Below, piece after piece: positions 9,640 through 15,190 of a stretch of 33,945 nucleotides of DNA (positions are counted from its first letter, which is position 1; the number at the start of each line of letters is the position of its first letter). Location: contig SCQY01000266.1 of NCBI GenBank assembly GCA_004298665.1, positions 1 through 33,945 of the forward strand, read 5' to 3'. The translations under genes were made by a program, and so were the position numbers. A model generated the notes under the pieces. The model was given only the letters and a program-made list of their open reading frames with translations, had not been told where the DNA came from and ran no database searches. This DNA comes from a bacterium. GTDB taxonomy: Bacteria > Vulcanimicrobiota > Vulcanimicrobiia > Vulcanimicrobiales > SCRA01.

Positions 9640-11034
9640 GTGGCTGCCGAAACCGTTTCCCAACACGACGAGGATGATAGCGAGCTCACGCGTCTCCTTG
9701 GGGCATATATCGCATGTGCTACCGGTTGGCTCGTGCTGTCGACGGCCGTCGGCATCATCGTCGCCTTCAAGTTCGCCTATCCGGAGTTCCTGACCAACCC
9801 TTACTTCTCGTTCGGCCGGCTCCGGCCCATCCACACGAACGATACGTTCTACGCATGGGCAAGCGTCGCGCTCGTAGGCTTGGTGTTCTACGTCGCCTGC
9901 AAGACCTGTGCGACGCGCTTGTACAGCATCAAACTAGGGTGGATCACGCTGGCGCTGTTCAATATTGCTGCGGTCCTCGGAACGATCGCCCTGGATATTG
10001 GCTTCAATAACGGAGATCAGGAATATCGCGAGTGGATCTGGTGGATCGAGGCGCTCCTCCTCATTGCCATCCTGACTGCCGCCTACAATCTCATCATGAC
10101 GGTCGCCAGGCGCAAAGACGATGACATCTACCTCTCCAACTGGTATACGATGGGCGGCATCATCTGGACGCTCATCCTCTCGATCGTCGCCTTCATTCCT
10201 TTGTATCAGTACGGTTTAGGGCAAGTGGCGGTGCAAGGCTTCTTCATGCACAACGCCGTCGGCATGTGGTTCACTCCGCTTACGCTGGGGCTCTTCTACT
10301 ACGTGCTGCCCAAGCTGCTCAACCGCCCGATCTACTCGTACGCTTTGGGCGTCCTCGCGTTCTGGACGAATCTCGTCTTCTATCCGATCATCGGCGCCCA
10401 CCATTTCATCTTCAGCCCGCTGCCGTGGTGGCTGCAGACGCTAGCCATCGTCTTCAGCGTAGCGATGCTCGTGCCGGTCTGGGCAGGCAGCGCGAACTTC
10501 CTGCTGACGATGCGCGGGCGCTGGGAGCAGGTACGGCGCTCGTATGCGCTGCCGTTCGTCTTCGTGGGCGTGCTGGGCTACCTGCTGGGATCGACGCAGG
10601 GAACCTTCGAAGCGTTTCGCTCGCTGCAGGCCGTCTGGCATCTCACGAACTTCACCGTGGGCCACTCGCACCTGACGATGTATACGTTCATCACCTTCGG
10701 GATCTGGGGCGGCATCTACGCCTTGGTGCCTCGCGCCACCGGGCGCGCTCCCTCGCTCATGCTGACCGGTCTGCACTTCTGGCTCGCCACGGTCGGCATG
10801 ACGATCTACATTCTGGCACTCTCCATCGGCGGTACGATCCAGGGCTTGGTGTGGATGAGCGGCGCGCCGTTCATCGACTCGGTGACGGCTATCGCGCCGG
10901 ATTGGCTGTGGCGCTCGATCGGCGGATCGCTGATGTTCATCAGTCACCTCGTCTTCGCGTGGAACGTATGGATCATGCTGGGCGGCGGTGAGCGTGTGGC
11001 CAGCCGCATCGAGCCGATCAAGGAGGCGGCCTGA
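9640..11034 (+). CDS. ccoN: cbb3-type cytochrome c oxidase subunit I
   Basis: Catalytic heme-copper subunit of a high-affinity terminal oxidase in the cytoplasmic membrane: reduces O2 to water and pumps protons. 464 aa with about 12 hydrophobic segments. Likely ligands are visible: H65 in RPIHTND (low-spin heme b), the His of FFMHNAVGMW and the His pair of IIGAHHF (CuB), and the His residues of VGHSHLTMYTF (hemes). The GTG start at 9640 gives MAAETVSQHD before the first membrane segment. There is no close ribosome binding site, and TAGTAT sits 7 nt upstream of the GTG, so translation could be leaderless. First gene of the oxidase operon; ccoO overlaps its stop by one base. The fused layout of the partner subunits is unusual. 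Confidence 0.93.
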   Translation: MAAETVSQHDEDDSELTRLLGAYIACATGWLVLSTAVGIIVAFKFAYPEFLTNPYFSFGRLRPIHTNDTFYAWASVALVGLVFYVACKTCATRLYSIKLGWITLALFNIAAVLGTIALDIGFNNGDQEYREWIWWIEALLLIAILTAAYNLIMTVARRKDDDIYLSNWYTMGGIIWTLILSIVAFIPLYQYGLGQVAVQGFFMHNAVGMWFTPLTLGLFYYVLPKLLNRPIYSYALGVLAFWTNLVFYPIIGAHHFIFSPLPWWLQTLAIVFSVAMLVPVWAGSANFLLTMRGRWEQVRRSYALPFVFVGVLGYLLGSTQGTFEAFRSLQAVWHLTNFTVGHSHLTMYTFITFGIWGGIYALVPRATGRAPSLMLTGLHFWLATVGMTIYILALSIGGTIQGLVWMSGAPFIDSVTAIAPDWLWRSIGGSLMFISHLVFAWNVWIMLGGGERVASRIEPIKEAA

Positions 11035-12032
11035 TGAATCGCGACGGCCGCCTTCTCGCCATCGCCGGAGGATCGGGGCTGGTTTACCTCGTGCTGGCGA
11101 CCTTGATGGGCGTGCTTCCGGGTATGGCGCTCTCGAGAACCGCACCGGGGCCGGGCGTCACGCCGTTGACTGCGGAGCAGCAGGCCGGGCGCGCGGTCTA
11201 CATCGCCGAAGGCTGCTCCTACTGCCACACCCAGCAAGTACGGCCGCTCGCGATGGACAAGGTCTTCGGCCGTCCGTCGGCGCCGGGAGACTACGCGTAT
11301 CAGACGCCCGAGCTCTTGGGCTCCGAGCGTACCGGACCCGATCTCACCAACGTCGGCGTGCGTCAGCCTGCCGAAGTCTGGCAGTACATTCACCTCTACG
11401 ATCCACGCGCGGTCGTGCCGCAGTCGATCATGCCGTCCTACCACTGGCTCTTCGAAGTCGTTCCCTCGGCGCCGCCGGGCGTGACCCCCGTTGCGCTCCC
11501 GCCCGCCTATGCCCCCAAGAGCGGCGTAGTGATCCCAACGGCGCGAGCCAAGGCGCTGGTGGCCTACCTGCTCTCGCTGAAGCAGCCGGCGCTGCCGGCG
11601 GACATGGAGAAAGCCGCGCAGGAGGCCGCGCAGGCGATGGCCCCCGCCAAGCCGGCAGCCGGTCAAGGTGCGGGTAAAGCCGCCGTACAGGGCTTCGACT
11701 ACGCTTCGACGGGTCCGAATCTCTACGGCGCCAACTGCGCCGCCTGCCACGGCGCACAGGGCACGGGCGTTGCGGGGGCCTTCCCGCCGCTCGCGAACGA
11801 TCCGGTGGTCACGGCCGCGGACCCCACCGAGCACGTGAAGATCGTGCTCGACGGGCTGCACGGCAAGAGCATCGGCGGAACGGCGTACGGGGGGCAGATG
11901 CCTGCCTTCGCCACGCAGCTCACCGACGAGCAGATCGCGGCGATCGTCGATCACGAGCGGACGTCGTGGGGTAACCACGCACGGACGGTGACGCCGCGCG
12001 ATGTCGCGCGGATCCGCAAAGGGGGGAAGTAG
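11034..12032 (+). CDS. ccoO: cbb3 oxidase subunit II (CcoO) fused to a C-terminal cytochrome c domain
   Basis: 332 aa. An N-terminal membrane anchor (residues about 8-30) is followed by the CcoO domain with heme-c site C61-x-x-C64-H65 in the diagnostic context CSYCHTQQVRP; SIMPSYHWLF holds the probable Met ligand. After an Ala/Pro/Lys-rich linker (about 195-220) a second mono-heme cytochrome c domain begins, with C235-x-x-C238-H239 (CAACHG) and probable Met in QMPAF. Normally the extra c-type hemes sit on a separate CcoP subunit; here one is fused to CcoO. The start overlaps the ccoN stop by one base and is preceded by AAGGAGG. The domains face the periplasm and pass electrons from cytochrome c to CcoN. 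The fusion is directly visible; the CcoP origin of the tail is inferred. Confidence 0.92.
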   Translation: MNRDGRLLAIAGGSGLVYLVLATLMGVLPGMALSRTAPGPGVTPLTAEQQAGRAVYIAEGCSYCHTQQVRPLAMDKVFGRPSAPGDYAYQTPELLGSERTGPDLTNVGVRQPAEVWQYIHLYDPRAVVPQSIMPSYHWLFEVVPSAPPGVTPVALPPAYAPKSGVVIPTARAKALVAYLLSLKQPALPADMEKAAQEAAQAMAPAKPAAGQGAGKAAVQGFDYASTGPNLYGANCAACHGAQGTGVAGAFPPLANDPVVTAADPTEHVKIVLDGLHGKSIGGTAYGGQMPAFATQLTDEQIAAIVDHERTSWGNHARTVTPRDVARIRKGGK

Positions 12033-12034
12033 GC

Positions 12035-12199
12035 GTGGAGCACATGGTGGGCGGTCCGCCGCTGGGCAGCGCGCTCGTCGCTCTCGCCGGCGGTGCGATC
12101 ACCCTGTGGGTGATCGTCGCTGCGATCCGCATGCTGATCTCTCCCGGTGAGACGGATCCCAGCCATCCGAAGTACAGCGTCCTGAGAGGTGATCGTTGA
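12035..12199 (+). CDS. 54-aa single-span membrane protein of the cbb3 operon
   Basis: GTG at 12035 opens a 54-codon gene squeezed between the ccoO-c fusion (2 nt gap) and the next gene (one-base TGATG overlap). The GGGGGGAAG upstream can act as ribosome binding site. The product has one clear membrane segment (about residues 11-36, GSALVALAGGAITLWVIVAA) and a short hydrophilic tail ending in PSHPKYSVLRGDR. Position and size match accessory subunits such as CcoQ or CcoS, but the sequence was not recognised as either. Tight coupling on both sides supports a real gene and a role in assembly or stability of the oxidase. Confidence 0.72.
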   Translation: MEHMVGGPPLGSALVALAGGAITLWVIVAAIRMLISPGETDPSHPKYSVLRGDR

Positions 12200-12648
12200 T
12201 GGAGGAGGCGGCGCGCATACGCGTCTTTCTCGACGCCGGAGCGGAACCCATCGCCGACTACGCGCCGCCGGCGAGTTTCTCGCTCGATACGACGCAGCTG
12301 CGCGATGGAGAGCACGCACTGCGAATCGAGGCCTTCGACGCCACGGGGCGGATGGGGATTCGGCGCATTCCGTTCGAAGTGCGCAACGGCCCCGGCATCA
12401 CGGTCTCCGGCTTGCGTGCCGGCAGCACCGTACACGGCACGCTCGACCTGCGGCTCAATGCCTTCGGCGGCGAGGAGCCGTTCGAGCCCAAGCGCGCCGA
12501 GTCGCCTTCGCCGATTCCCGTCTGGACGTGGGTGATGTGCGTCTTCATCGTCGCCTGGGCCGCGTGGTATGCGGCCGAGATGTGGAACGTGCCGCCGGAG
12601 TTCGCCAAGACCCCCACGTACTACTCGGTGAGCACACAGGGCCGCTAG
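12199..12648 (+). CDS. Ig-like domain protein with C-terminal membrane segment, cbb3 operon
   Basis: 149 aa. Residues about 5-65 resemble a bacterial Ig-like beta-sandwich (pattern FSLDTTQLRDGEHALRIEAF then FEVRNG). Near residue 105 follows SPSPIPVWTWVMCVFIVAW, a single membrane span resembling the N-terminal anchor of CcoP/FixP (usually with PRWWLW). No CXXCH is present, so it carries no heme c. Because the second cytochrome c is fused to CcoO, this gene may supply the anchor part of a split CcoP. The ATG overlaps the preceding stop, with GAGAGGT upstream. It is probably the last gene of the operon; a GGCCG/CGGCC hairpin (12664-12679) follows without a T run. Function inferred from context only. 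Confidence 0.75.
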   Translation: MEEAARIRVFLDAGAEPIADYAPPASFSLDTTQLRDGEHALRIEAFDATGRMGIRRIPFEVRNGPGITVSGLRAGSTVHGTLDLRLNAFGGEEPFEPKRAESPSPIPVWTWVMCVFIVAWAAWYAAEMWNVPPEFAKTPTYYSVSTQGR

Positions 12649-12718: not shown

Positions 12719-15190
12719 ATGGTAGGAAGCGGAGCAAGCGTCGTGGACGCCGGAACGGCGCTCGAGGGGTTGGGAGCCGCCGAGGCGGCGCGGCGTCTTG
12801 CCGCGTACGGACCCAACGAGCTGCCTTCGCAGCGGCGGGCCCCGCGTTGGCTGCGGCTCCTCAAGGCGCTTGCCGACCCGATGGCGATCCTGCTGGTCGT
12901 AGCCAGCGCCACGTACGTCGTGTTGGGCGATCGGTTCGACGCCGCCGTCACGGGGATCGCGTTGGTACCGATCCTGCTCGTCTCGCTGGTGCTGGAGGGG
13001 CGCGCGGAGCGCGCGCTCGATCGACTCAAACAATTGACGGCTCCCACGGCGGTCGCGCTGCGTGATGGGCGGGAGACGACCATCTCGTCCACGGCGATCG
13101 TGCTCGACGACCTGCTCGTCGTCCAAGAAGGCGACGTGATCCCCGCCGACGGTGTGCTGCTGCGCGGTTCACAGCTCATGCTCGACGAATCGCTGCTCAC
13201 CGGTGAGTCGCAGCCTGTGCCCAAAGATGCCGTCGACGACGGCGCCGAGCGTGACCTTTGGGCGGGCACCACGCTCCTTTCGGGGCGCGGCGTGATGGTC
13301 GTTACGGCCACGGGAGCGCGCACGCGGCATGGTGCAATCGGCACGCTCTTGAGCACGATCGAGGCGCCGGCAACGCCGCTGCAGCGGATGGTGCGGCGTT
13401 TCGTTGGCCAACTCGGCATCGGTGCCGCCGTCTGCTGCGTGGCGGTGGTGATCGCCGACTTGCTGCACGGCTCTGCCTGGCCCGCAGCCATCATCGCCGG
13501 CGTGAGCCTGGCGATGGCCGCCATCCCCGAAGAGTTTCCCATGGTCTATACGCTCTATCTCGCGCTTGGGGCATGGCGCCTGGCGCGCGACGAAGCGTTG
13601 ATTCGCAAGCTGCCTAGCGCCGAGACGCTGGGGGCGACGACGGTCATCTGCACGGACAAAACGGGGACGTTGACGCTCGGGCGCCTCGACGTCGACACGG
13701 TCTACCCAGCGGACGGGAGCGACGTGCTCGGCGCCGCCCTCTGCGCCTCCGAGGAGTCACCTTTCGATCCGCTCGAACAAGCCATCGAGCGTGCGGTACG
13801 TGCCGCTGGTCGCAAGCGGAGCGCGTCGCCGTTGGTGCGCCGCTACGCCTTCGACCCCGCGGACAAGTACGTCTCCTACGTTCGCCAGACCGCCGATGGC
13901 CTGCGTATCTTTGCCAAAGGATCCGTTGAGGGAATTCTCGCGCATACCGCTCCGCCGGCCGAGCGGCGCAGGGAGATCGAGGAGGTCAATCGCCAACTCG
14001 CGGCGCGCCGCATGCGCGTGATCGCCGTCGCCGAAGGAGGCATCGCGGAGAGTACCGGCCGCGCCGACGACGAGCGTGCGTTGGCGTTCGTTGGGCTCGT
14101 GGCCTTCACCGATCCGATTCGCCCCGACGTGCTCGTTTCGTTGGAGGAATGCCGGCGCGCGGGGGTCCGCGTCATCATGCTGACGGGTGATCATCCCGAG
14201 ACGGCGGCGGCCATCGGTGCCGCGCTGAACTTCGCGGTAGACCATGGCGGCACGATTGCCTCGGGCGAACAGATCGACGCGCTCGACGACGTGGGATTGG
14301 CGGAGCTTGCGGCGCATACCACCATTTTCGCGCGCACGCGCCCCGAGCAGAAGTACCGGCTGGTGAAGGCGCTGCAATCGCGCGGCGAGGTCGTGGCAAT
14401 GACGGGCGACGGCACGAACGATGCGCCCGCGCTGCGCGAGGCAGACATCGGCATCGCGATGGGGAAGCGCGGTACCGAGGTGGCGCGCGAGGCGGCCGAT
14501 TTAGTGCTGCTGGACGACGACTTCACCACCATCGAGCGCGCCGTGCGCGACGGACGGCGCATCTTCGACAACCTCAAGCACGCCTTCTCGTACCTGCTGG
14601 CGTTCCACATTCCACTGCTGATTTCGGCGCTGGTCCTGCCGATCGCCGGGGCGCCGCTGCTGCTGCTTCCCATTCATCTGGTTTGGCTGGAGTTGATCGT
14701 GCACCCGACGTCGTCGCTCGTCTTCGAAGCGGATCCGCCGGATGCCGACCTCATGCGTCGCCCGCCGCGGCGCAGCGGCGCGGGCTTCTTACGTGCGGGC
14801 GAGTTCGCGCGTCCGCTCGTCGTAGGCACGACGCTGGCTCTGGCCGTGCTGGCGCTCTACGTGTGGGAGTTGGCGCATGCCATGCCCGTCACCGAGGCGC
14901 GCGCGCTGGCGTTGTCCGCCATGGTGATCGGCCAGCTGCTGCTGGTGTTGGTGGAGCGCGATCCGCTGCGCCCGCTCTGGCAAGTACCGTTGCGCAACAA
15001 CCTAACCTTGATCGTCGTGATGCTCATGGCGGCCGCGAGCCTGCTGATGCTGGTTTACGTCCCCGTCGCGGCGGCGGCTGCAGAGTTCGGCCCGCTGACG
15101 CTGCGCGAATGGGGGTTGGGCGTCGCCGTCGCCGTGTCGGCCACGTTGTGGTACGAGCCCGTGAAAGCGTGGCGGCAAGCGCACATCTAG
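12719..15190 (+). CDS. P-type cation-transporting ATPase (P2-like; substrate unknown)
   Basis: 823-aa inner-membrane pump driven by ATP. In order: N-terminal cation-ATPase domain (GLGAAEAARRLAAYGPNELP); actuator loop with LLTGESQPVPKD; membrane segment 4 with AAIPEEFPMV; phosphorylation site D313 in CTDKTGTLTLG; nucleotide domain; hinge TGDGTNDAPALREADIGIAM; and C-terminal membrane bundle. Calcium pumps usually show PEGLP and Mg pumps PEMLP in segment 4; PEEFP is neither, so the ion is not assignable. No CXXC metal-binding domain is present, which argues against Cu/Cd/Zn type. No clear ribosome binding site precedes 12719. mgtC follows 13 nt later, which would suit Mg2+ homeostasis as in mgtCB operons of enterobacteria. 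Confidence 0.9.
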   Translation: MVGSGASVVDAGTALEGLGAAEAARRLAAYGPNELPSQRRAPRWLRLLKALADPMAILLVVASATYVVLGDRFDAAVTGIALVPILLVSLVLEGRAERALDRLKQLTAPTAVALRDGRETTISSTAIVLDDLLVVQEGDVIPADGVLLRGSQLMLDESLLTGESQPVPKDAVDDGAERDLWAGTTLLSGRGVMVVTATGARTRHGAIGTLLSTIEAPATPLQRMVRRFVGQLGIGAAVCCVAVVIADLLHGSAWPAAIIAGVSLAMAAIPEEFPMVYTLYLALGAWRLARDEALIRKLPSAETLGATTVICTDKTGTLTLGRLDVDTVYPADGSDVLGAALCASEESPFDPLEQAIERAVRAAGRKRSASPLVRRYAFDPADKYVSYVRQTADGLRIFAKGSVEGILAHTAPPAERRREIEEVNRQLAARRMRVIAVAEGGIAESTGRADDERALAFVGLVAFTDPIRPDVLVSLEECRRAGVRVIMLTGDHPETAAAIGAALNFAVDHGGTIASGEQIDALDDVGLAELAAHTTIFARTRPEQKYRLVKALQSRGEVVAMTGDGTNDAPALREADIGIAMGKRGTEVAREAADLVLLDDDFTTIERAVRDGRRIFDNLKHAFSYLLAFHIPLLISALVLPIAGAPLLLLPIHLVWLELIVHPTSSLVFEADPPDADLMRRPPRRSGAGFLRAGEFARPLVVGTTLALAVLALYVWELAHAMPVTEARALALSAMVIGQLLLVLVERDPLRPLWQVPLRNNLTLIVVMLMAAASLLMLVYVPVAAAAAEFGPLTLREWGLGVAVAVSATLWYEPVKAWRQAHI

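Follow-up and report, generated by a model that had tools for sequence, protein, structure and literature searches.

A tight operon of four genes, all on the forward strand, occupies positions 9640-12648 of contig SCQY01000266.1 (33,945 nucleotides, hereafter the window), part of the metagenome-assembled genome (MAG) GCA_004298665.1 from the bacterial phylum Vulcanimicrobiota, formerly Candidatus Eremiobacterota, a name carried by relatives from the same order. The genes encode CcoN, a CcoO with an extra cytochrome c domain, a 54-amino-acid (aa) transmembrane (TM) protein and a heme-free protein that joins an immunoglobulin (Ig)-like domain to a TM segment. Profile matches, CXXCH positions and open reading frames (ORFs) agree with the coordinates and gene content that the first-pass annotation of this DNA gave for a rearranged cbb3 oxidase. 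Comparison with related loci favours, on balance, the view that this cbb3 lineage has a mobile entry heme domain, which on two or more occasions was duplicated from a CcoP-like anchor onto CcoO and then lost from the anchor; an intermediate would still be living in Bacteroidota. The window lineage would then retain a heme-free, purely structural CcoP whose Ig-like domain is cytoplasmic, in genomes that yielded neither ccoG nor ccoS.

Distribution and history of the cytochrome domain

The window CcoO carries CXXCH motifs at aa 61 and 235. The first lies in the FixO-matching core, whose top structural match is 3mk7_B, and the second in a C-terminal cytochrome c domain (Cytochrom_C match at aa 226-307) joined to the core by an Ala/Pro-rich linker (Table 1). 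The same four-gene arrangement is found in all four genomes of the window genus examined (the window's own and G001, G002 and G003), with CcoO identity of 68-90%; the first-pass annotation had proposed looking for this order in related genomes. Close CcoN homologues (at least 57% identity) are present in 19 of 101 related genomes, and the Ig-TM protein in 24 of the 149 genomes of a phylum-wide search. In the sister family f2, every intact locus encodes a mono-heme CcoO, the small protein and a single-ORF Ig-TM-cytochrome c protein (~282-300 aa), an architecture shared by the intact loci of family f3. The sister-family oxidases (such as L074 and L052) have a CcoN 57-66% identical to that of the window and share its Ig domain, its TM anchor and its small protein, but their cytochrome c is still borne by the anchor and their CcoO is mono-heme. 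The Ig-TM-cytochrome c protein of L074 is collinear with the TIGR00782 ccoP model over the TM segment and first heme domain (model positions 21-191 of 285, 1.9e-13) and is, judged by this alignment, a CcoP without its second heme domain. The extra domain of the window CcoO shares the signature GFDYxxxG...IDHERTSWGN with the anchor-borne domains of the sister families, and by its sequence is homologous to the cytochrome domain of their Ig-TM-cytochrome c protein. These mono-heme CcoO and Ig-TM-cytochrome c proteins of f2 and f3 support the earlier proposal that CcoP was split and its cytochrome moved onto CcoO.

A wider search, in which 84,980 species were scanned, finds the window architecture also in Burkholderiales, Acetobacteraceae, Rhodanobacter and one Terriglobia MAG, while Bradyrhizobium and a Beijerinckiaceae MAG have two cytochrome domains on CcoO. 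The oxidase unit is rare: counting strong matches only, it occurs in 2/369 and 1/385 genomes sampled in two proteobacterial classes (seeds included) and in 6/391 sampled genomes of a Bacteroidota class. Four of the sampled Bacteroidota-class loci (L173, L174, L175 and L177), together with L091, bear a cytochrome on CcoO as well as on the Ig-TM anchor. One Bacteroidota genome (G495, locus L176) has lost the anchor copy and bears the cytochrome on CcoO only, and a gammaproteobacterial locus (L178 in G879, of the class of G152) bears it on the anchor only. Plasmid records yielded no Ig-type match. The outgroup oxidase on plasmid pBN2 of Paraburkholderia aromaticivorans (L118) has a CcoN 38% identical to the window protein, a mono-heme CcoO and a TM-cytochrome c protein as third subunit, but neither an Ig domain nor an annotated CcoQ-like gene; a P-type ATPase, only distantly related to that of the window genus, and a molybdopterin oxidoreductase follow. 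The run-on of this operon into the molybdopterin oxidoreductase and a cytochrome c (L118:10908-12599) suggests that an oxidoreductase feeds the pBN2 oxidase.

The concatenated tree of CcoN, CcoO and the Ig protein groups the window genus with Proteobacteria of the same architecture (98/97) and unites the remaining Vulcanimicrobiota, the sister families, in one clade (100/99). The Bacteroidota and L178 form another (98/96), with L178 basal to the Bacteroidota. Five architecture changes suffice on this tree, and a topology that joins the window genus to the other Vulcanimicrobiota is rejected, but weakly (p = 0.02). Relocation was compared with reciprocal loss by trees of the cytochrome domain itself (103 columns) and by approximately unbiased (AU) tests. 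The domain tree pairs the two Bacteroidota copies as sisters (92/89), as copying within the lineage predicts, and places the CcoO-borne copies from the window group interspersed with Vulcanimicrobiota anchor-borne ones (87/85). These data favour an ancestor with an anchor-borne domain, a copy of which would have been placed onto CcoO before the anchor lost its own; that loss would have occurred separately in the window lineage and in Bacteroidota. In the wider clade the P-like subunit has its Ig-like domain at the N-terminus, followed by a single TM helix and one cytochrome c domain; duplication onto the neighbouring ccoO would have produced the state still seen in Bacteroidota, and the anchor copy would have been lost thereafter.

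The same distribution could also arise with no relocation, if CcoO and the Ig-TM anchor each bore the cytochrome in the clade's ancestor and the window lineage then lost the anchor copy, the sister families the CcoO copy. Loci with both copies exist today, one Bacteroidota genome did lose its anchor copy, and a strict split of CcoO-borne from anchor-borne copies is not rejected (AU p = 0.17). Such a history, however, would take three or four independent losses at the least and has to accommodate an anchor-only domain in the outgroup L118, in L178 and in all sister Vulcanimicrobiota loci. It also sits poorly with the sister relationship of the Bacteroidota copies, and with the CcoO domains of the window genus being nearer to the anchor-borne domains of the phylum (mean identity 61.9%) than to other CcoO-borne ones (58.8% and 43.8%). 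Reciprocal loss is regarded as the less likely account.

Under the relocation reading, other events assigned to the rearrangement fall earlier. The Ig-like domain reported on the anchor is retained here, but its acquisition along with the split is not: because the anchors of all architectures in the clade bear Ig, it is placed, on this distribution, before the cytochrome move. Likewise, the count of two c hemes holds, but the loss of the third is not tied to the rearrangement. The second heme domain of CcoP is already gone in the sister families, so the reduction from three c hemes to two is, on the same comparative grounds, an event preceding the move; two hemes are already typical of the sister families, and relocation as reconstructed cost no heme.

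A further explanation takes the CcoO extension to be an unrelated cytochrome c that was fused independently, with the heme domain of the anchor lost by chance. PRK14486/NF011054, a bifunctional cbb3 subunit II/cytochrome c, has a C-terminal cytochrome c fused to CcoO as in the window and matches most of the fusion length (3e-45), and other CcoO-cytochrome fusions are known (L119 and L179). The PRK14486 match nevertheless scores 155 bits, far under its cut-off of 447; the window fusion differs in being accompanied by a heme-free Ig-TM anchor, and its domain is placed among the anchor-borne domains of the sister families in the domain tree, with which it shares its signature. Independent fusion is accordingly given only a slim chance.

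The small protein and the heme-free anchor

The 54-aa protein contains the motif PGExxPxHPKxxxLxxDR and is kept in all four architectures, including that of Bacteroidota. Its position and size are those of CcoQ, and FixQ gives matches in more of the small homologues than any other family does (4 of 18, best 7e-4, none over the cut-off). A CcoS-like identity was considered and dropped, FixS being absent from the matches that included FixQ. The Ig-like/TM ORF has no CXXCH. FixP_N is matched by 10 of its 29 homologues (best 0.012, below the Pfam threshold), and in the two full-length proteins for which the position is shown the match falls at the TM segment. The window anchor ends just past PPEFAKTPTY; in the sister proteins a linker and then the cytochrome domain follow at this point. 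The TIGR00782 alignment of the sister protein and the weak FixP_N matches of the homologues uphold the kinship with CcoP suspected from the window alone.

The Ig assignment is drawn from weak matches: Big_7 in 12 and Big_13 in 11 of the 29 anchor homologues, all sub-threshold, together with hits of the Ig profile (to 3e-9) on large proteins elsewhere that have multiple repeats and the beta strands predicted for the region by AlphaFold2 (mean pLDDT, the model's per-residue confidence, 72). A fold search with the Ig protein returned no match at E<=0.001, the best being the beta sandwiches of CopC, FN3 and cadherin-like proteins at E ~0.05 and above. The ratio of non-synonymous to synonymous substitution rates (dN/dS) is 0.07-0.29 for the heme-free anchor, against 0.08-0.17 for ccoN; the anchor is thus kept under purifying selection, which points to a structural role.

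The first-pass annotation regarded the ccoNOQP order as replaced. We read the operon instead as collinear with it (N, O, Q-like, P-like), because position, size and order agree even though the FixQ and FixP_N matches stay below cut-off. FixP_N over threshold and a second FixO were both sought in the window genome and not found, in keeping with the expectation that no separate ccoP exists; the eight tested genomes of Vulcanimicrobiota likewise yielded no other FixO. A second FixO, and CcoS as well, are present in the remaining hosts that were tested. A bare TM anchor of ~77 aa, with neither Ig nor heme, was observed at L179 (3951-4259) and L180 (genomes G861 and G762, of the class of G152), where it adjoins a 609-aa CcoO with three CXXCH motifs and the CcoN is 37% identical.

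The catalytic subunit and a working model of the oxidase

The window CcoN aligns with P. stutzeri CcoN (3mk7) over nearly its whole length (8e-69). The six histidine metal ligands (H60, H207, H257, H258, H345 and H347 in P. stutzeri numbering) and the tyrosine of helix VII that lines up with the cross-linked Tyr251 are kept in all members aligned, S240 is Gly throughout the clade, and Glu323, which the canonical sequences compared retain, is Gln in every clade member aligned. This Gln sits in a conserved QG[ST]xE motif, with a Glu four residues later, across the clade, and a Gln occupies the same position in the outgroups L118 and L119 (QGSVQ in L119). The replacement means that proton coupling or substrate could differ, and it lends some credit to the idea that the complex reduces another substrate, such as NO. 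The Tyr251-aligned tyrosine, the three CuB histidines and the entire C-family framework are kept, however, and to our knowledge NO reductases lack the cross-link tyrosine. A substrate other than O2 therefore seems improbable, and the window CcoN, with its metal ligands and cross-link tyrosine conserved, is probably an O2 reductase.

Architecture, homology and distribution can be read from the sequences; from them we infer the electron path, topology, O2 substrate and role of the Ig domain. The operon probably encodes a working C-family cbb3-type cytochrome c:O2 oxidoreductase with a relocated electron-entry cytochrome c domain, leaving a heme-free Ig-TM P-like subunit. A soluble or bc1-linked donor would reduce the C-terminal heme c of CcoO, from which electrons would pass to the first CcoO heme c, to heme b and to b3/CuB, where O2 would be reduced; the C-terminal heme is given the entry role of the CcoP heme by analogy with the canonical cbb3 path. 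A bc1 cytochrome b was found. The Ig-TM and 54-aa proteins would be subunits that serve structure or assembly, the Ig domain facing the cytoplasm. Cytochrome c maturation is periplasmic, and a periplasmic cytochrome c on a single TM helix would put the C-terminus of the fused sister protein outside and its Ig domain in the cytoplasm.

Several points weigh against this model. The domain trees do not reject the strict split described above; the FixQ, FixP_N and Big matches are each below Pfam thresholds; CcoN reaches 276.9 bits with the NCBIfam equivalog TIGR00780 ccoN, under its cut-off of 583; and Glu323 is replaced. The likeness to canonical CcoNOQP (P. stutzeri 3mk7/5djq) comprises the CcoN metal ligands, the aligned Tyr251, the mono-heme CcoO core, the gene order and a TM anchor resembling FixP_N. 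The window differs in the extra CcoO cytochrome, in two c hemes instead of three, in Gln at Glu323, and in an anchor that lacks both CcoP heme domains (the sister families keep one) and has an Ig-like domain. Vulcanimicrobiota also differ in their assembly genes: a check for ccoG and ccoS, advised for the window genome in the first-pass annotation, found neither CcoG nor CcoS in any of the eight Vulcanimicrobiota genomes tested.

Genomic setting and implications

Table 1. Features of the oxidase operon in the window
Feature	Position	Strand	Evidence
ccoN, catalytic subunit of divergent C-family (cbb3) heme-copper oxidase	9640..11034	+	COX1 2.8e-81
ccoO core (N-terminal TM and first heme c domain; CSYCH 11214-11228)	11034..11588	+	FixO 3.9e-35, aa 16-141; 3mk7_B 6.7e-26
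ccoO extra C-terminal cytochrome c domain (CAACH 11736-11750)	11691..12032	+	Cytochrom_C 4.9e-17, Cytochrome_CBB3 2.6e-15
54-aa single-TM protein, CcoQ position	12035..12199	+	conserved in all four architectures; FixQ sub-threshold in homologues
Ig-like domain, N-terminal part of heme-free anchor	12199..12519 (start ATG 12199, alternative TTG 12196)	+	Big_7/Big_13 sub-threshold; AlphaFold2 strands
CcoP-like TM anchor and short tail	12520..12648	+	helix 108-128 (AlphaFold2); FixP_N in 10/29 homologues; alignment with sister proteins

TGATG overlaps at the ccoN/ccoO and small/Ig junctions, and a gap of 2 bp between ccoO and the small ORF, mark the four genes as one operon. A P2-type cation ATPase (window 12719-15190) lies downstream in the window genus, and L056 and L057 have a second P-type ATPase in tandem with the first. 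The P-type ATPase and proC are neighbours common to the window genus only, and hosts elsewhere have different ones; in Bradyrhizobium (L061) the cassette adjoins genes that look like hemC and hemE, with a cytochrome b561-like gene nearby (identified by eye only). The host genome is a MAG of 3.16 Mb in 362 contigs, 90% complete, and its closest named relatives are groundwater MAGs (FW021 bins). It holds five more COX1-family genes over the cut-off, on contigs C42, C73, C24, C203 and C13, and a weak match on C173. An assembly or frameshift artefact of this fragmented genome is refuted, to near certainty, by three more genomes of the genus, by cultured Bradyrhizobium and Rhodanobacter, and by purifying selection on the anchor.

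CcoO-cytochrome fusions are already known (PRK14486). The combination of such a fusion with a heme-free Ig-TM remnant of CcoP, and the series of intermediates, were not found described in the literature searched, which did not cover subscription papers. The loci compared here would provide a natural intermediate series showing how a redox domain moves from one subunit of a respiratory enzyme to another, and their distribution carries the caution that ccoP should not be called missing in such genomes. Also of note are a cbb3-type oxidase whose maturation apparently does without CcoG and CcoS, and a whole clade with Glu323 replaced. CcoP normally combines two functions, bearing the entry heme and keeping the complex together; in the window oxidase they appear to be separated, and each may be tested alone.

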